Assembly (NCBI GenBank): GCA_016787545.1
Contig: JAEUUS010000737.1
Coordinates: forward strand, 1 to 34,258
Origin: Saprospiraceae bacterium
GTDB taxonomy: Bacteria > Bacteroidota > Bacteroidia > Chitinophagales > Saprospiraceae
Reading direction: 5' to 3'
DNA length: 34,258 nucleotides
Every line of letters begins with the position of its first letter. Positions within the stretch are counted from its first letter, which is position 1. Positions 16,276 to 22,902 of this stretch are shown here, piece by piece. Under the pieces are notes generated by a model that was given only the letters and a program-made list of their open reading frames with translations, was not told the DNA's origin and did not search any database. The position numbers were made by a program, and so were the translations under genes.

Positions 16276-16304
16276 TGACGATTGACGATTACATGATTGA
16301 AGAG
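16276..16304. repeat. Half element D (GATTGACGATTACATG-ATTGAAGAGG)
   Basis: This tract sits between the convergent proline dehydrogenase and T9SS cargo genes. It matches one arm of element E (22774-22902) except that 8 bases (AGTACATG) present in E are missing. No opposite arm is seen, so on its own it cannot form the hairpin that E can. Confidence 0.7.
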
Positions 16305-16316
16305 GTCTATTTATTT

Positions 16317-17945
16317 TCAATGTACCACCACAAGTTTTTTCATCACAGGTTTTTGCGCATCTATGTAAGCCGCTATAATATAGGCCCCTGCCGCCCAATC
16401 CGATACATCCAATGGATATGCCTCCATACCAGGAATGAATGAAATTTCTTTTATTACCTGTCCGGCCATATTCCATACCTGTATCCTGATGCCCTCGCAT
16501 TGTGGCACATACAGCATCACTTCGTGATTGGCTGGATTGGGAAATATCCGAAATTCCTCGAAAGTATAGGTTGGCTTTGGCGGGTTCGGGTCGTCTATGC
16601 CGAGCGTGTCACATGGGCTGTCTTTTAGATCAAACAGGTTAAAGTTTGGAAAATAGTTAATGACGAAATATGACCAGCGAGGCAATGTCACCCCGCGCTG
16701 CTCAAAATCACAGGCCTGGCCAGCCTTGTTCGGTTCGTGTATTACGTGGATATAGCGTGTACTATTTGCAGGGTTTATGTATATCTTTCCGTCGGGTGCG
16801 TTGCGCATCTGAAAGAAATTGGTCGCAAAAAAACCTTCATCTAAAAACCTGTCCCACTCTTCTATCAGTTCGTATTCCCCGTTCTCTATATTCTCTTCGC
16901 ATAAGTCAAACTGGTAAAGCCCTTCATTGTTGTTGAAATAAAGGTAGCGGCTGTTAGGAGAAATGGCCAGCCCGCAAGCAACAATTGGCTCATCAGGATA
17001 GGCGCTGTAGGGTGGGAGCGGAATATACCTTCGAAAGGTCATTTCTCCCGAACATCGGTCAAAGTCGAAGACCTCTACGCCGCTAGACCGTATGACCCGG
17101 CAATATTTTGTGCCGTCAGGGGAGAAAGTTGCCTGCCCGGCCCATGATTCATAGCCGTATTCGTCTGGAATGATTTCTAGTAAAAAAGGAGGCACATCAA
17201 TATTTAAGTAACCTTTTATATTAAATGGTGGATAAGGCGGTGGAAACGTTTGCAGAACTGGCTCCTTAAACCCTTCTGGTGTGAGCAACATCTTCCAAAA
17301 CTGTCTATTTTTCCCCCTCGGCATCACTACCCACCAATCTCGACCGTTCCCATGCTTGACCGCAGCAATGGCATCGTGGAGGCTGTCGGCAACTATGGTC
17401 TGGTTTTTTTGTATTACTTTACCCAAGCCGTTATTTGCCATCATATCTATCTCAGTGAAGTAAAGACGGTCATTTAGTAGGTCGTAAGCATTTGTATCGG
17501 AAGTTTCAATTAGCCTTAGGTGTAACAACAAATGTGAGCCATTATTATTGGGAATAGGCAAAGTCATGTTGCCACTTCTTATGTAGAACAAACCCACATA
17601 TTCATCACATAATTGTTCATAATTACTTGAACCGAGATTTATTTCATCTCCGTTTTCCATCACCTCGTTCTGCTTGTTGAATATTGAGCAACCGTTGGTG
17701 TAGAAAAGCAGGTTGCCGGCCTCATCGTTTGCCACCGCCGAGATAGGTCCACCGAAAATGTCGAATTTTTCTATAGCATAACCAGATTCGCCGAACTTCA
17801 TGTACATACCGCCAAACTCCTCTGTATTGGGCTGGCCGGGTATCAAGGTTGGGTATCCCAAGACCCAAGTGCAGTCATTTTTTAGCTGGCCGAACAGGGG
17901 ATGAGCCTTAACGAGAACTAGTAAAATGAAAATTATTTTTTGCAT
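16317..17945 (-). CDS. T9SS type A cargo protein, beta-propeller-like
   Basis: 542 residues. A signal peptide (about 1-19, ending PLFGQ) is followed by a large beta-rich region (about 20-440). It contains segments such as AVANDEAGNLLFYTNGCSIF, GQATFSPDGTKYCRVI, GLAISPNSRYLYFNN and MRNAPDGKIYINP, the pattern of propeller blades. The C-terminal sorting domain runs from about 465 (FRIFPNPANHEV) to KKLVVVH, so the protein is exported by the type IX system and anchored or released outside. This family is abundant in Saprospiria and Cytophagia; its function is not known. The gene is more AT-rich than its left neighbours. Downstream is half element D, and upstream a 450-base gap with a gene remnant. 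Confidence 0.82.
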   Translation of the reverse strand: MQKIIFILLVLVKAHPLFGQLKNDCTWVLGYPTLIPGQPNTEEFGGMYMKFGESGYAIEKFDIFGGPISAVANDEAGNLLFYTNGCSIFNKQNEVMENGDEINLGSSNYEQLCDEYVGLFYIRSGNMTLPIPNNNGSHLLLHLRLIETSDTNAYDLLNDRLYFTEIDMMANNGLGKVIQKNQTIVADSLHDAIAAVKHGNGRDWWVVMPRGKNRQFWKMLLTPEGFKEPVLQTFPPPYPPFNIKGYLNIDVPPFLLEIIPDEYGYESWAGQATFSPDGTKYCRVIRSSGVEVFDFDRCSGEMTFRRYIPLPPYSAYPDEPIVACGLAISPNSRYLYFNNNEGLYQFDLCEENIENGEYELIEEWDRFLDEGFFATNFFQMRNAPDGKIYINPANSTRYIHVIHEPNKAGQACDFEQRGVTLPRWSYFVINYFPNFNLFDLKDSPCDTLGIDDPNPPKPTYTFEEFRIFPNPANHEVMLYVPQCEGIRIQVWNMAGQVIKEISFIPGMEAYPLDVSDWAAGAYIIAAYIDAQKPVMKKLVVVH

Positions 17946-18046
17946 GGGACAGATTCATAGTTTACAAATAGAATAGGGTGGCGCAAGGTATGCCCATTGG
18001 AAAGTTACTTAGTTGTCAGTTTCTTATAGATCATGCCTTTTGATAA

Positions 18047-18295
18047 ATACCCCTTCCTAACACGTTTGAAAGTATCCCTAACTACAACTCACACTTCAAT
18101 CAAGTTTGTAAATACATACATCACCCTTGGCGGAATATCACCAAGTCCGGAGTCAACAAAAAATACCTATCTGGAAAATACCGGCAGGAAATAATAAATG
18201 CCCAAATCAGTTTTAGGGTAAACGACCATCTGAAAAGTGTTTTTGAAAAAGGATGCGGATTAAAACTTTTCAAAGGTATATCAGTAAAAGGATAA
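18047..18295 (+). pseudogene. Orphan 3' reading frame, probably a broken gene remnant
   Basis: In the gene-poor stretch 17946-18315, one plus-strand frame is open for 82 codons after a stop at 18044-18046 and ends with TAA at 18293. It has no usable start codon. Its translation looks like protein, with NITKSGVNKKYLSGKYRQE and a basic end KLFKGISVKG, unlike the low-complexity translation of the other frames, one of which encodes a 53-residue frame from ATG 18033. I read it as the 3' end of a decayed gene, family unknown. It lies outside the transposon, whose left end starts 28 bases further right. The rest of the gap shows nothing I can name. Confidence 0.35.
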
Positions 18296-18315
18296 ATCCA
18301 ATGGAAAAAAGGTTA

Positions 18316-18323
18316 AAGTATAA
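18316..18323. repeat. Left 8-bp target duplication (AAGTATAA)
   Basis: AAGTATAA stands directly outside the left terminal inverted repeat. The identical octamer stands directly outside the right one at 22767-22774. Eight bases is the duplication length known for the IS1595 family. Confidence 0.9.
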
Positions 18324-18353
18324 AATGACTATCCGCAATTAGGAAACAAGATT
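18324..18353. repeat. Left terminal inverted repeat, 30 bp
   Basis: The outer end begins AATGACTATCCGC. All 30 bases are the exact reverse complement of 22737-22766, and the match stops at base 31 on the inner side. The stop codon of the HNH gene lies 44 bases inside. Confidence 0.93.
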
Positions 18354-18397
18354 TTCAAGTGATTGATTTTCAGGATATTATAATCAAAAAACCTTGC

Positions 18398-19561
18398 TCA
18401 TCGGTTTCCTTTTGCACGATTATGAGTATAACATAGCATTTGACAATTCTTTGTATCCGTAGCACCACCTTTACTCCATGCTGCTACATGGTCGGCATCC
18501 ATTTCTGAAATGCTCCATACCTTACTTTTGTTGGCACTATGGCCGATAGCACAAAGTGGGCAGTTAGATATACCTTTCTCTTTGGCTTCATCAGTTTGAA
18601 TCTTGTAAACAGACTTTTTAGTTGCTTCATCAAATACTCGAATGTCAAGTAATTTTTTTTCTGTTGAACCGCCAAGGATGTATTCAAAAATGCCCTTCCT
18701 ACTTTTAACATAAGGGTCGCCATAGAGATTTCGCACTTCTGCTGATACTTTTTTGGGGTCATACGGTTTTTCGTGATATGTCTCGTATAAACGCCCCCAT
18801 TCAAGTCCACACATCTCATTCTCTACATCAATAAATACAGTAGAAACCCAGTCAATAACACTCAAAAAGTAGGTTTTTAGTTCCTTTATGTTATTATCGT
18901 AACGATGCCTACTCATATAATCAACAATACTGCCTTTGCTTACCCAATCCAACGCGCTCTCTAAAAATGCTTGTCGGTTGACGCTTCCTTTTATGTATGC
19001 ACCCCATTTTTGGATGTTAGCATTCTGGCTGTTGCTAAATTCTGCCTTAGCAAGGGTTACAAATGAGCCAGAGAAAATAGCATTATTTAACTCTTGTTCG
19101 TTAAGGGGAATGCCAGCTATATTTATAGTACGAAACCAATTTTTTATCTCACTTTCTTCTCCCTCACACTCGTAAATAGTGAGTTTAGTGTTTAAAATCT
19201 TAGATTTTTTATCTGCTGCAATTCCATCAAAATATTGCTCCAAACCGTTTTCATCTTTGTAAGCAAATTTATTAGTTAGGTATCGGCCAATGCTTGTAAT
19301 ACGCTGTTGCCCATCCAGAATTTCAAATTCATCTTCACTGACTTTCACGAAATATATTAAACCGAGAGGATAACCTTTGAGAAGTGAATCAATAACGGCA
19401 ACATCTTTTTTCCCATCAGCATAAATATAATTACGTTGATATTCCGGTTGTATGGTTAGCTTCCCTGAAAGCCCAAATAGGCCTTTGCCTTCAAGTTCAT
19501 TGTAGACAAAACCTTCACATATTTCCTTAACTGTAACGTCTATTCGTAATGTAGTTTTCAT
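18398..19561 (-). CDS. DUF262 + HNH endonuclease family protein
   Basis: 387 residues. The N-terminal DUF262 domain (about 10-150) has the ParB/GmrS-like motifs QPEYQRNY (38-45) and DGQQR (83-87), which in relatives bind or hydrolyse nucleotides. The C-terminal HNH nuclease has a zinc pair CPLC (334-337) and CYTH (377-380), the active-site DADH (355-358, His358), Asn372 and the terminal NRAKGNR. GmrSD-type DUF262-HNH proteins cut modified or foreign DNA in phage defence. Here the gene lies 4 bases after an EcoRI-family adenine methyltransferase in the same operon, so a restriction partner of that methylase is the natural reading. That pairing is inferred, not shown. It is the innermost gene at the left end of the transposon. 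Confidence 0.85.
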   Translation of the reverse strand: MKTTLRIDVTVKEICEGFVYNELEGKGLFGLSGKLTIQPEYQRNYIYADGKKDVAVIDSLLKGYPLGLIYFVKVSEDEFEILDGQQRITSIGRYLTNKFAYKDENGLEQYFDGIAADKKSKILNTKLTIYECEGEESEIKNWFRTINIAGIPLNEQELNNAIFSGSFVTLAKAEFSNSQNANIQKWGAYIKGSVNRQAFLESALDWVSKGSIVDYMSRHRYDNNIKELKTYFLSVIDWVSTVFIDVENEMCGLEWGRLYETYHEKPYDPKKVSAEVRNLYGDPYVKSRKGIFEYILGGSTEKKLLDIRVFDEATKKSVYKIQTDEAKEKGISNCPLCAIGHSANKSKVWSISEMDADHVAAWSKGGATDTKNCQMLCYTHNRAKGNR

Positions 19562-19565
19562 ATAA

Positions 19566-20693
19566 TCATCTTTTTTTAATGAAAATGCGCTTGTATGTCT
19601 TTTGGCCGTCTACATAGGGTTCATTGTGCTTCTTAAAATGTGGTATCTTGTATTTTTCATCAACTACTCCATTGTCACTTGCTCCAATGATTTCAAACTG
19701 AGCGGGATTATACTTATCTAAAAAAGTAATCGGCACTCCCATAACACCAGTATAATCACTTGGAATTGCATCTGAATATGGGACTTCAATAGCATCATAA
19801 TTATCATATTTTCTGTATTCTTTCCCCTTGATTTCTTTATGAGAACTAAATTTAATATTGTCTTTCATTGTCATCAAAGGTAATGGTTGATGTCTTCTAC
19901 CGTGATCTAAATTTGTGAGCCAAAGACAATTATTTGTGGCAACGATTCGCTTCCCATCTTCATCAATACGAGCCTCTGTACCATATAACTCGTATGATTC
20001 TGGCACAATAAACCCAGAAATCCATCGTCCCATTCCAGTGCCAAGCCAGATTTTGTTCTCTTTAATTAAAGGAAAAACTTCCTTATATGTAATAGCATTT
20101 ATATTAGCAATTATTAAGAATTTTTTGTCATGCTCAATAAGTTGGCTAATATAGTCCTTAAACAGGCTAAATGGAGGATTTGTTATTACAATGTCAGATT
20201 TTTTTAATAAAGATATTGACTCTTTACTTCGAAAATCGCCATCTTCATTTAAAGGTTCCCATTCATTATGCCTATTCTCCTTTAACTGTAATGCTACATC
20301 TTTTAGGCTAAATTCGCCATCTCCATCTATGTCCCCAACCTCATTTATAATAAATTTGTTAGCAGTTATCTTCGGACGTCCTTTTTCTTTTGTGAGAGTC
20401 TTGTCATCACCAAATAATTCAAGTTGTGTATTGGCTACGGGAGAAGGCTTGTAACTGGTGGTAATAAGCTGTTTTAATCCAATACGTTTGAAATTTAAAA
20501 CGAAATAACGAAAAAAATTACTCTCGAACGGGTCGTCACAATTACAATAAACAACTTTATTTCGAAATACATCTGGGTCAAATTCTAAATATGCTTCAAC
20601 CTCCTTCTGGATGTCACTATATTGAGTATAGAACTCATCACTTTTTGATTTTTTTGCTTTATGCAATAATTTGTTTGTTGCATTTCTTGCCAT
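19566..20693 (-). CDS. EcoRI-family adenine-specific DNA methyltransferase
   Basis: 375 residues. It transfers a methyl group from S-adenosylmethionine to adenine in a DNA target site, protecting host DNA. The N-terminus DEFYTQYSDIQKEVEAYL (19-36) and VVYCNCDDPFESNFFRYFV (47-65) are the signature of the EcoRI methylase family. The catalytic motif IV is NPPF (172-175) in IVITNPPFSLFKDYI. The length is near that of EcoRI methylase (about 325), with an insert of charged, Asp-rich residues (DIDGDGEFS, 121-129). It is the first gene of a two-gene operon with the DUF262-HNH nuclease, and its promoter must lie in the 134 bases before the divergent transposase. The AT-rich composition fits recent transfer. 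The target sequence cannot be read from the protein. Confidence 0.88.
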   Translation of the reverse strand: MARNATNKLLHKAKKSKSDEFYTQYSDIQKEVEAYLEFDPDVFRNKVVYCNCDDPFESNFFRYFVLNFKRIGLKQLITTSYKPSPVANTQLELFGDDKTLTKEKGRPKITANKFIINEVGDIDGDGEFSLKDVALQLKENRHNEWEPLNEDGDFRSKESISLLKKSDIVITNPPFSLFKDYISQLIEHDKKFLIIANINAITYKEVFPLIKENKIWLGTGMGRWISGFIVPESYELYGTEARIDEDGKRIVATNNCLWLTNLDHGRRHQPLPLMTMKDNIKFSSHKEIKGKEYRKYDNYDAIEVPYSDAIPSDYTGVMGVPITFLDKYNPAQFEIIGASDNGVVDEKYKIPHFKKHNEPYVDGQKTYKRIFIKKR

Positions 20694-20772
20694 TGGTTGT
20701 TCTTGTTTTTAGGATTACGAGATTATGTGTTTTGAGTGTTTGTCATTAACACTCGCATTAACAATTAAACAC

Positions 20773-20803
20773 TTTGTAAATCGCTGATTTTTATGTACTT
20801 TTA
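20773..20803 (+). promoter_or_regulatory. Promoter of the transposase gene
   Basis: A -33 box TTTG (20773-20776) and a -7 box TACTTTTA (20796-20803, one base off TAnnTTTG) are separated by 19 bases, a Bacteroidota promoter layout. It points at the transposase ATG at 20828. The promoter at 21892 in the same element has identical spacing. Confidence 0.6.
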
Positions 20804-20827
20804 TAGAGTAATTTAAAAACAGCAGCG

Positions 20828-21757
20828 ATGAATCTTATCGAATTTATCAGCAAATTTCCCACGAACGAATCTTGCTAAATCCACTACGCAAACCTTCGAT
20901 TGGAACGTGGAATTGCTTGCAAAAAATGCGAAAAGCAAACACCACACTACTTCCTTGCATCAGTCAAAAAGTTTCAATGCAAGTGTTGTCGTTCCCGTAC
21001 CAACTTGAAGGCTGGCACGATGATGCAGGATTCCAACCTTCCTATTCGACTTTGGTTTCTTTGCCTTCATTTGATGACTGGTGTTAAAAAATCGTTTTCT
21101 GCTCTTGAAATGCAGCGTCAGTTAGGTGTAAAACGGTATGAGCCTGTTTGGTACATGATGCACAAAATCCGCTCTACTATGGGAAAACGGGACGCAAGAT
21201 ACCAACTCTCCAAAGATTTTGAGATTGATGAAGCATTTTTTGAAACGGTGGACTTTGAATACATCAAACACAAGAATGACGAACCTTTGAAAGCGGGTCG
21301 TGGCAGTCAACGCCAAACGAAAGTCCTTGTAATGGTTGAATCTGAAAAAATCGTTGAAGGTAAAAAGGGTAAAAAAGACCGTAAGATGGGTTTTGTGAAG
21401 ATGGTAGTCATTGACGACCTCTCATCCAAAACGATTAACCACGAGGTTGCTAAGGCTGCTAAACCCGAAACTACGGCAACGGGCGACGACTGGAAGGGAT
21501 ACCGCAAACTTGACCAAGTTATCAAACAGGTCAACCAACAAGTAGTGCCTCCAAAAGAAGCCGGAAAGGTTCTGCCTTGGGTACATACCATGATTGCAAA
21601 CTCGAAACGGATGGCAAATGGCGTTCACCACAGTATCAATACCAAGTATGCTCAAAACTATCTCAACGAGTTCTGCTACAAGATTAACCGCCACAACTTC
21701 CAATCCGATTTGTTTGATAGGGCTTTGATAGCGGGAGCAGATGATATTTGGTTCTAA
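20828..21757 (+). pseudogene. IS1595-family transposase, interrupted by an in-frame TAA at codon 17
   Basis: The frame starts at ATG 20828 (MNLIEFISKFPTNESC), meets TAA at 20876-20878 and continues in the same frame to 21757. Without the stop it would encode 308 residues, normal for the family. The zinc-ribbon follows directly (ACKKC, then FQCKCC), then LKAGTMMQDSNLPIRLWF and SFSALEMQRQLGVKRYEP. The catalytic residues are present: first Asp in FEIDEAFF, second Asp in TATGDDWKGYRK, and the later IANSKRMANGVHHSINTKY segment with the conserved Asn and Lys. A single change from AAA (Lys) would give the TAA. A TTG at 20900 could restart translation and keep the zinc ribbon but would lose the first helix. 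The gene is probably recently inactivated; a sequencing error is the alternative. Confidence 0.85.
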
Positions 21758-21785
21758 ACCTAAATTTTCAAAGAACTGATTTTGA

Positions 21786-21816
21786 AGCCTTCCCAAATTG
21801 AGAGGGCTTTTTTTTA
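21786..21816 (+). terminator. Intrinsic terminator after the transposase
   Basis: AGCCTTCCC and GAGAGGGCT form a nine-pair stem with one mismatch and a G-T pair around a short AT loop. An uninterrupted run of T follows on the plus strand. It lies 28 bases after the transposase stop codon. Confidence 0.7.
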
Positions 21817-21891
21817 AATATTCCAGCACGAGTGATTTGAACATTTTTTATTTTAAATGTTTCAATATGTTTCAAAAAAGTTTCGTAAAGA

Positions 21892-21922
21892 TTTGTTTTT
21901 AAAACTTAAAAATGTACTTTTG
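21892..21922 (+). promoter_or_regulatory. Promoter for the small gene at 21998
   Basis: TTTG (21892-21895), 19 bases, then TACTTTTG (21915-21922) is a perfect TTTG / TAnnTTTG pair. Transcription would start near 21929, giving a leader of about 70 bases before the ATG at 21998. Confidence 0.65.
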
Positions 21923-21997
21923 TATTAAATATGCCCTGACAGCAAGACATATTTTAATTATTCACAATTATTTTTTCACATTCTAACCACCGATTTT

Positions 21998-22159
21998 ATG
22001 CCACGCACATCAGCATGGCACAGCATTAAACAGTCTGTGCATCACAACAACACGAATTGCAACACTGGAAACAACATTGAGAAAGAGAACATTCGACAAG
22101 GGGATGGCGGAAAGCCATTATGTAAAGAATGCTCTGACCTCAACAAGGAAGGTAAATAG
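21998..22159 (+). CDS. Small Cys/His protein, 53 aa, transposon passenger
   Basis: The ATG at 21998 starts a 53-residue reading frame. The second half has a metal-site look: HHNNTNC near residue 15, the stretch GNNIEKENIRQGDGGKP and then LCKEC (41-45). The spacing of Cys/His pairs suggests a small zinc-binding protein. I believe similar short proteins with an HNN..C..GNNIE..GGK.LC..C pattern occur elsewhere in Bacteroidota, but I cannot check this here. A perfect promoter lies 76 bases upstream. Its last 20 bases overlap the end of the convergent gene at 22140. Function is unknown. Confidence 0.6.
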   Translation: MPRTSAWHSIKQSVHHNNTNCNTGNNIEKENIRQGDGGKPLCKECSDLNKEGK

Positions 22160-22490
22160 TACCAGTGTTTGAGTGTACCGAAAACGTCAACTCATTAAAC
22201 GGTCTGTCCCAGTTTTCTCCAATGGGAACACCGTTAGTTACTTCTGAATAGACATCTGTTTTTCGGTACACTCTTTTCGCTTCCGCGACATTCATCCTAT
22301 GGATGGTGCAAAGTTCGTATGCACGAATCAAATCAAACTCATCACCAAAAAAGCGAACTGTTGGCACATCATAACAGTGTCCCTTGCCGCCTTCACAAGA
22401 TTCAAAAGTCTTAAAACCATATTTGTTCAACAACACTACGACATCTCTAATTCCTTCATCTAAGGAATTTATTGCAAATTCATCTAACAT
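22140..22490 (-). CDS. Conserved hypothetical protein (FESCEGGKGH family), transposon passenger
   Basis: 116 residues from the ATG at 22490 (MLDEFAINSLDEGI); a TTG at 22505 would add five residues. The segment VVLLNKYGFKTFESCEGGKGHCYDVPTVRFFGD (about 18-50) is a conserved signature that I associate with small proteins of phages and mobile elements, with a C-terminal NELTFSV strand. No catalytic role is established for them to my knowledge. It is convergent with the 53-residue gene, overlapping it by 20 bases, and divergent from the 58-residue gene. As cargo of a transposon with a methylase and nuclease, it could be an accessory or anti-defence factor, which is speculation. Confidence 0.65.
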   Translation of the reverse strand: MLDEFAINSLDEGIRDVVVLLNKYGFKTFESCEGGKGHCYDVPTVRFFGDEFDLIRAYELCTIHRMNVAEAKRVYRKTDVYSEVTNGVPIGENWDRPFNELTFSVHSNTGTIYLPC

Positions 22491-22551
22491 AAAATACTGC
22501 TCCAATTTAGTCTATAAATATCATTCCCTCAACTTTTAAAATTTCTTCACC

Positions 22552-22728
22552 ATGTCAAAGAACAAAATCACACCACAGCAAAATCAGGCCAATACTCAAA
22601 ATGCGAACAAGGGTACTGCCGGAGTAAACAAGCAAAATGCACAAAATCAGGGGAATCGTGGTAAGCAACTCAATACCACACCGAATGATGCCAATACGAA
22701 TAAAGGAGGTGGGAAAAAGCCGGGCTAA
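22552..22728 (+). CDS. Asn/Gln-rich basic small protein, 58 aa
   Basis: The ATG at 22552 opens a 58-residue frame that is almost entirely Asn, Gln, Lys, Thr and Gly (MSKNKITPQQNQ to KGGGKKPG). It has no hydrophobic core, so it should be disordered and positively charged, perhaps nucleic-acid or polymer binding. It ends 8 bases before the right terminal inverted repeat. Low complexity makes the coding call uncertain; the clean ATG and the lack of stops in a repeat-like composition are the only support. Confidence 0.5.
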   Translation: MSKNKITPQQNQANTQNANKGTAGVNKQNAQNQGNRGKQLNTTPNDANTNKGGGKKPG

Positions 22729-22736
22729 CTGCCTTC

Positions 22737-22766
22737 AATCTTGTTTCCTAATTGCGGATAGTCATT
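22737..22766. repeat. Right terminal inverted repeat, 30 bp
   Basis: Exact reverse complement of 18324-18353; its outer end reads GCGGATAGTCATT. The 8-base target duplication follows directly. Confidence 0.93.
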
Positions 22767-22774
22767 AAGTATAA
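22767..22774. repeat. Right 8-bp target duplication (AAGTATAA)
   Basis: Identical to 18316-18323. Its last base is the first base of hairpin element E, so the transposon landed at the boundary of that palindrome. Confidence 0.9.
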
Positions 22775-22902
22775 TTACATGATTGACGATTACATGAGTA
22801 CATAATTGAAGAGGGGAGCGCTGGGCCAGGCATCCGTACGAATGCCAAGCCCAACGCCCCCCCTCTTCAATCATGTACTCATGTAATCGTCAATCATGTA
22901 AT
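22774..22902. repeat. Hairpin element E between transposon and convergent barrel gene
   Basis: The left arm (from 22774) reads ATTACATGATTGACGATTACATGAG and continues to ATTGAAGAGGGG. The right arm ending at 22902 is its near-exact reverse complement with one mismatch in the first ~40 bases. The inner part also pairs (GCGCTGGGC with GCCCAACGC, GGCAT with ATGCC), so the whole 129 bases can fold into one hairpin. Half element D at 16276 is a relative. It lies downstream of the minus-strand barrel gene and could end its transcript. Confidence 0.88.

Follow-up and report, generated by a model that had tools for sequence, protein, structure and literature searches.

An IS1595-family element of a Saprospiraceae bacterium carrying a nuclease-methyltransferase pair with putative exchangeable recognition segments

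The specificity of orthodox two-gene restriction systems is generally regarded as locked, as the nuclease and the methyltransferase must change target together. In Type III systems, specificity resides in exchangeable recognition segments, with a retained cutting subunit. In Type I restriction, specificity likewise resides in exchangeable recognition segments and the cutting subunit is kept (PMC12707154). Restriction systems have also been reported on transposons (PMC4176335; PMC3031569), and experiments with PaeR7I describe how an insertion sequence and a restriction system move together, as well as post-segregational killing (PMC3031569). Members of the IS1595 family of insertion sequences usually generate 8-bp target duplications (PMC8101967, PMC5704250), passenger-carrying members such as tISCpe8 and MTnSag1/tISSag10 are known (PMC5704250), and Tn7052, which is mobilized by the IS1595-family element ISEc69, has A+T-rich 8-bp targets (PMC7835479). 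We analyzed a stretch of 34,258 bp from a Saprospiraceae bacterium (GenBank assembly GCA_016787545.1, contig JAEUUS010000737.1, positions 1 to 34,258), hereafter the window, in which an IS1595-family element encloses genes for a DUF262-HNH nuclease (R) and an EcoRI-family adenine methyltransferase (M). We consider it fairly probable that the element carries a mobile restriction module in which cassettes of M set the target and M directs R.

The first-pass annotation of this DNA, made from its letters alone, had described an IS1595-type transposon with passengers, 4,443 bp long and bounded by exact 30-base ends and an identical octamer, and these borders are right to the base. The 8-bp repeat AAGTATAA and the 30-bp inverted ends delimit an element of that length, with the ends agreeing at 30 of 30 positions and the match breaking off at base 31, and the G+C content is 0.37 in the element versus 0.48 and 0.50 in its flanks. 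With base frequencies taken as equal, about 5e-10 perfect 30-base inverted pairs would be expected by chance in the window (34258^2/2 divided by 4^30), the 8-base repeat not yet counted. The transposase frame at 20900-21757 scores 189.5 bits with NF033547 (cutoff, 75) and 73 bits with PF12762 (DDE_Tnp_IS1595; cutoff, 27). A candidate for the N-terminal zinc ribbon, a family feature that only the IS1016 group lacks, reaches 13.9 bits with PF12760, under the cutoff of 25.4, and four cysteines at positions 7, 10, 27, and 30 of this open reading frame (ORF) are invariant across five aligned transposases.

Transposase searches matched 10 of 100 relatives (E 1e-10), 19 of 395 class genomes (E 1e-40), and 5 of 244 family genomes (E 1e-50), with the window's own genome part of every count and the genome sets overlapping. 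A scan for bracketing ends at 26 loci (loci and genomes carry L and G numbers here), in which exact 8-bp duplications were required, gave a match at 15; 13 were kept and two (L073 and L077) set aside as less clear, 10 loci gave none, L087 was unusable (N runs), and three further loci gave none. In shuffled controls, 0 to 7 of 20 runs matched at a given locus; the argument for an element family is therefore carried by position and tip motif and not by the scan alone. All 13 kept relatives have exact 8-bp duplications in which 6 to 8 bases are A or T, and the tip motif NNTGANTNTCCGC stands at one or both ends in 10 of them, with L020, L078, and L082 deviating. Nine are about 1 kb long, with space for little besides the transposase, and the other four, of 1.4 to 2.7 kb, carry different small cargo genes (three from G050 and one from G022, both Saprospiraceae). 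A scan of nine proteins, mostly cargo of the related elements, gave a match to a helix-turn-helix regulator and, for a 208-amino-acid (aa) protein, two weak PADLOC matches (E 0.03 to 0.05); the remaining proteins of this set, which left out the 89-aa cargo ORF of L017, had no defense match. None of the 14 is larger than the window element, and no other has perfect 30-base ends. Given the duplications, the tip motif, and the other cargo of these relatives, the assignment to a passenger-carrying IS1595 lineage with 8-base duplications holds. That the inverted ends and the repeat coincide by accident around genes gathered separately is, in view of the chance expectation, the 13 exact duplications, and the 10 tip motifs, a negligible prospect.

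Inside the element, the M gene adjoins the R gene, as in Type II systems. R has DGQQR (83-87), D357, H358, N372, and N381 invariant in 21 aligned sequences, and M has NPPF (172-175) invariant in 22, with the window included in both alignments. With L139, the closest pair, as reference, the ratio of nonsynonymous to synonymous substitution rates (dN/dS) comes to about 0.05 in R and 0.10 in M, rough values because dS lies above 1. Both genes look selected to work, and the nuclease-methyltransferase defense module named at first reading is supported by the family models and by this apparent purifying selection.

Systems with related nucleases differ in particular segments of M. We compared 36 of them, window included, in 349 pairs at an R identity of 65 to 85%. 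Four R stretches of 63 to 89 residues never fell below 50% identity in any of these pairs. Two segments of M, called V2 and the tail (Table 1), behaved otherwise: V2 was bimodal, with 312 pairs below 50%, 37 at 60% or more, and none between, and the tail was below 50% in 327 pairs and at least 60% in 22. Clustering at 50% gave 8 types of V2, 23 of the tail, and 4 of a third segment, V1 (M residues 76 to 163), in 31 combinations among the 36 systems; as the systems were the best search matches and no random sample, these counts are not frequencies. The duplicate locus L175 is counted among the 36 and was omitted from the R-tracking, tree, and 589-pair analyses, and the broken M of L093 (near the N terminus) was retained. 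Between the window and L139, V2 of M is 94% identical and the tail 19%. The V2 type was unrelated to overall R identity (p 0.59) and was tracked by no 20-residue window of R (p 0.51); the tail type likewise had no significant R window (p 0.39), and on the R tree it required 27 changes against a shuffled mean of 27.8, with 113 of 300 shuffles as low. V2 and the tail thus look like recognition cassettes of M, exchanged largely independently of R. The combination of a conserved R with an M whose segments have been swapped suggests that target reading is probably not done by R. The label "restriction-like," given to the pair at first, holds and understates the case, since segments resembling specificity determinants appear shuffled under a conserved nuclease. 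In a second group of R proteins (18 systems, after 2 of 20 pairs, L146 and L150, were dropped by length), the middle and tail of M are also variable, the identities of R and M show a moderate correlation (Spearman 0.38), and none of the V2 segments proved to be of the EcoRI type. As a separate observation, the variable tail of the L178 methyltransferase contains a THTHTHTH repeat run and is perhaps phase variable.

EcoRI systems, in which the target is presumably fixed as GAATTC, served as a control. Family methyltransferases beside R.EcoRI-like nucleases were spotted by eye and then by annotation, with more taken from viral contigs, and 6 of the 14 loci were dropped for want of a full-length nuclease or methyltransferase ORF (L094, L095, L096, L216, L220, and L222). 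The resulting 26 comparisons span nuclease identities of 55 to 90% with a mean of 68%, the same mean as in 589 comparisons of DUF262 systems. Segments N, C1, and C2 of M are alike in both sets (71, 76, and 75% in EcoRI systems versus 64, 70, and 70% in DUF262 systems). V2 and the tail average 82 and 81% in EcoRI systems, where they are the most conserved parts of M, versus 32 and 18% in DUF262 systems; pairs below 40% in V2 and the tail number 0 of 26 in the former and make up 87 and 95% in the latter. If V2 and the tail read DNA, their conservation in EcoRI systems would follow from the fixed target. V1 was rejected as a recognition segment, as it is variable in EcoRI systems too (mean, 43%, against 50% in DUF262 systems) and follows the R tree.

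Some of these segments are shared with EcoRI systems. Among 54 methyltransferases with a DUF262 partner, three (the window, L139, and L183) have an EcoRI-type V2 and two (L109 and L157) an EcoRI-type tail, and none has both; the window M is therefore half EcoRI-like (Table 1). The tails of L109 and L157 and the V2 of L183 are EcoRI-type cassettes in DUF262-partnered methyltransferases of other lineages; compared with M.EcoRI, L109 reaches up to 86% identity in the tail and 21% in V2. On balance, we lean toward the view that pairs of an EcoRI-family methyltransferase and a DUF262-HNH nuclease form a compact restriction class that is filed as Type II, in which the nuclease would not read the target, V2 and the tail would each set part of the specificity and would be swapped also with EcoRI systems, and the IS1595 element described here would be one carrier.

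A rival reading is an ordinary Type II system on a transposon, in which R would read on its own the target that M reads, the relatives would all keep one or a few targets, and V2 and the tail would be no more than fast-evolving surfaces. PADLOC models label both genes Type II, the R tree is weakly reflected in the V2 types, and R has two variable loops, all of which would fit. The identities of V2 and the tail are bimodal rather than graded, however, in EcoRI systems with their fixed target nothing in M is more conserved than these segments, and no stretch of R tracks the V2 type, so we regard an ordinary Type II system as unlikely. The comparative evidence likewise weighs against a nuclease that recognizes its target independently of the methyltransferase, as the Type II definition has it.

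Several observations do count against cassettes in M and an R that M directs. V2 needs 21 changes on the R tree against a shuffled mean of 23.9, with 15 of 300 shuffles as low, and pairs with the same tail are slightly more alike in R (+0.043, p 0.03). The V1 type follows R at about residue 46 (p 0.03), and on the R tree V1 needs 4 changes against a shuffled mean of 6.9, with 0 of 300 shuffles as low. R itself is not uniform, with up to 22 and 14% of pairs below 40% in 20-residue windows at about 101-125 and 256-275, although these windows do not track V2 or tail type. The EcoRI control consists of just eight full pairs, two of them identical. The predicted models of R and M are of moderate confidence (mean predicted local distance difference test scores [pLDDT] of 77 and 74), and no solved structure matched M by sequence, so that V2 and the tail could not be placed on DNA; matches to PDB sequences were not convincing, and a fold search with the M model recovered only generic folds of methyltransferases, with no match reaching E 0.001. 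The M model puts V2 in strands after the NPPF motif with low local confidence. Lastly, a stop in the transposase frame, taken up below, argues against mobility of the element today.

M most likely directs R, and the main alternative is that R is a sequence-blind, modification-sensing nuclease like SspE, with DUF262 reading the methylation made by M and HNH nicking DNA without it. DUF262 proteins of known function, namely, GmrSD, BrxU, and SspE, respond to DNA modification (PMC12707154, PMC10952713), and the best PDB match of the R model is BrxU, a weak one (E 1.4e-3, TM-score 0.23). Yet the nuclease domain of R is HNH (PF01844), not DUF1524, so R lacks the combination of DUF262 and DUF1524 found in Type IV enzymes of the GmrSD type, which cut only modified DNA, and self-protection site by site is harder to explain without target reading. 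We consider a modification-sensing R improbable.

In the mechanism that we favor, an IS1595-family transporter insertion sequence would have entered beside a repeat-rich intergenic site, duplicating AAGTATAA, with a transposase that would bind the 30-bp ends and move all DNA between them. The cargo would be a mobile two-gene restriction-modification module, in which M would methylate adenine, with V2 and the tail as the exchangeable segments that fix the target, and R, a putative ParB-like NTPase fused to an HNH nuclease, would cut DNA with unmethylated M-specified sites. M would direct R, most likely through contact with M or M-bound DNA and not through sequence reading by R; if so, new specificities could arise by cassette swaps in M with R unchanged. 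A host that lost the element would face leftover R, and this would favor the retention of even a copy impaired in transposition. If true, swapping methyltransferase cassettes under a conserved nuclease would escape the lock of orthodox systems with two genes, and this escape could help explain the spread of such pairs across phyla on plasmids, on phages, and, here, on a small transposon. It would also offer a concrete handle on the DNA-reading parts of EcoRI-family methyltransferases. Among IS1595 elements, a restriction module joins the passengers already known.

Table 1. Positions of the element's features within the window
Feature	Positions	Strand	Basis
Left 8-bp target duplication AAGTATAA	18316..18323	.	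Sequence
Left terminal inverted repeat, 30 bp, tip AATGACTATCCGCA	18324..18353	+	Sequence; tip motif recurs in relatives
R, 387-aa GmrSD_N (DUF262) + HNH nuclease	18398..19561	-	PF03235, 72 bits; PF01844, 29 bits; PADLOC REase_II, 275 bits, nearly full length
M, EcoRI-family adenine methyltransferase of 375 aa, immediately upstream of R	19566..20693	-	PF13651, 434 bits; PADLOC MTase_II, 409 bits
M segment tail, aa 336-375, putative cassette; none of the other compared systems has this type	19569..19688	-	13% to best EcoRI tail; 19% to L139
M segment V2, aa 214-262, EcoRI-type putative recognition cassette	19908..20054	-	78% to best of 7 EcoRI-partnered methyltransferases
IS1595-family transposase frame	20828..21757	+	NF033547, PF12762; TAA at 20876-20878 after 16 codons; longest open frame 20900-21757 from TTG, 285 aa
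Small ORF, 53 aa, 3' end overlaps next gene	21998..22159	+	65% homologue in same arrangement in L130
Small ORF, 121 aa, no known family	22140..22505	-	75% homologue in L130 near lone IS1595-type end
Small low-complexity ORF, 58 aa, status uncertain	22552..22728	+	ORF list; no family match
Right terminal inverted repeat, 30 bp	22737..22766	-	Sequence
Right 8-bp target duplication AAGTATAA	22767..22774	.	Sequence

The element had also been called complete, which is true of its perfect ends and duplication and not of its transposase, whose frame opens with an ATG at 20828 and is broken by the early in-frame TAA, so that it is not an uninterrupted single gene. The stop lowers the claim of an intact, active IS1595 member, not the family membership of the sequence. 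Transposases of four aligned relatives start about 24 residues or more before the 20900 frame of the window, and the copy may lack a full-length transposase. One further TAA, flagged in a relative from another genome, proved to be that gene's normal end and no interruption. The element could accordingly be a dead relic, in which the nonsense codon put an end to transposition and left the module as a chromosomal gene pair moved solely by recombination or by other elements. Besides the TAA itself, the six closest other relatives (42 to 58% identity, four genomes) show no stop inside the match, one of them (G048) being split between two frames, and the assembly (86.7% complete, 741 contigs) has one copy of the element, with no further 30-base end at up to three mismatches. 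Set against this, the insertion looks recent, given an exact duplication and ends that agree at 30 of 30 positions, compared with 21 to 27 of 30 in the 13 relatives; a start at the TTG at 20900 would spare the zinc-ribbon cysteines and the catalytic region; and the TAA could be a sequencing or assembly error. A dead relic is a real possibility, although not the outcome that we expect.

The R-M pair itself is widespread, occurring on plasmid records of Enterococcus, Moraxella, Arthrobacter, Gordonia, and Phocaeicola and also on chromosomes. R was found in 24 viral contigs, with M adjoining in 21; in Flavobacterium phage vB_FspS_laban6-1 (L187), the same restriction pair, with a nuclease 76.6% identical, lies close to the tail tape measure gene. 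M and R share a strand in all 56 paired loci, window included, and the gap or overlap is under 30 bp in 46. No IS1595 transposase ORF of at least 200 aa stands beside the module at 68 other R or M loci, and none of these has two motif ends; since the sequence at many of the 68 is short and the strict motif is missing from 3 of the 13 true relatives, this is no proof that IS1595 carriers are absent. A duplication-plus-end scan of 18 of those loci gave nothing with the IS1595 motif, and single 11-base motif matches at five loci, with single looser ones at L102 and L108, were judged to be chance. In L100 (7979-11829), an EcoRI-family methyltransferase, near which no DUF262 partner was found, precedes a further methyltransferase-like ORF and one resembling an AAA ATPase (first residues judged by eye), possibly a different defense operon.

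The named families of the two large cargo genes stand. Of the three small genes, two are conserved elsewhere, and the third, at 22552-22728, had no match in the loci compared for it. Homologues of the 53-aa and 121-aa proteins (65 and 75%) overlap in the same way in L130, from genome G035 of the same genus. About 1 kb from that pair, a lone end AATGACTATCCGCA at L130:9559 equals the first 14 bases of the window end; a second IS1595-type end was not found at this locus. The repetition of the pair near a lone end points to a recurrent passenger pair. L130:8102-9559 may be a one-ended remnant of a related IS1595 element, with the 53/121-aa pair and a 282-aa ORF that has no Pfam or PADLOC match. 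Otherwise the 121-aa protein is rare: 2 of the 42 genus genomes have it, as does 1 of the 198 class genomes (both counts include the window's genome), and it has no match in Pfam, NCBIfam, PADLOC, PHROGs, or PDB. For the 58-aa ORF there was no family match and no homologue in the loci compared; genomes were not searched for it. No RNA family matched within the element, and promoter and terminator scans of it did no better than on shuffled sequence.

A palindromic repeat resembling repetitive extragenic palindromes (REP-like), with core TACATGATTGAAGAGG (window 22774-22902 and 16290-16305), begins right at the right duplication of the element. Allowing up to one mismatch, the core has 58 copies in the source genome and 41 and 94 in two others of the genus, and zero in 32 of 42 genus genomes. 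The element and a type IX secretion system (T9SS) gene sit between two copies of this repeat. To the left of the element lie the T9SS gene and an A+T-rich stretch of 378 bp with a G+C content of 0.36 (window 16317-18323), both absent from the otherwise syntenic G017 contig (L132), so the interval 16317-18323 has changed more than once. An empty site was sought with the neighboring outer membrane protein (OMP) gene in 42 genus genomes, of which 18 matched; 8 of the 18 loci were taken with wide flanks, and the joined window flanks were compared with these and one further locus. A clean empty site with a single AAGTATAA, which the first-pass annotation had proposed to look for, was not found among the genus loci compared. 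G017 keeps PRODH-OMP-xerD and lacks the element, but a single join cannot be read there because the T9SS gene to the left is also absent, and G015 has a T9SS homologue (66%) whose upstream DNA is not similar to the window.

In literature searched by title and the start of the abstract, with most subscription papers outside that search, we found no report of a restriction module inside an IS1595 element or of cassette swapping in the EcoRI methyltransferase family. One close likeness is to the EcoRI system, whose methyltransferase belongs to the same family (PF13651) and whose best EcoRI-partnered V2 is 78% identical to that of the window; here, however, the nuclease is DUF262-HNH and not R.EcoRI, M precedes R, and the M tail is unlike (13%). 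With GmrSD, BrxU, and SspE, R shares the GmrSD_N domain with its DGQQR motif, and its model weakly fits the BrxU fold, but those proteins carry DUF1524, whereas R has HNH and is paired with an adenine methyltransferase. Unlike Type I and Type III systems, the window pair has no helicase or separate specificity subunit and consists of two compact genes, so that recognition would sit inside an EcoRI-family methyltransferase. In Helicobacter pylori, methyltransferases reportedly change sequence specificity through domain movement; that study concerns the methyltransferase repertoire of a pathogen, whereas here the variation occurs in pairs with a conserved DUF262-HNH nuclease. In the PaeR7I experiments, chromosomal copies of IS1 or IS5 mobilize a plasmid, whereas the module described here lies inside the ends of one element (PMC3031569). 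Like the window element, tISCpe8 and MTnSag1/tISSag10 combine an IS1595-type DDE transposase with passenger genes; they are described as mobilizable, and tISCpe8 as a lincomycin resistance element (PMC5704250), whereas the window element carries a restriction module and small genes, two of which match no known family.

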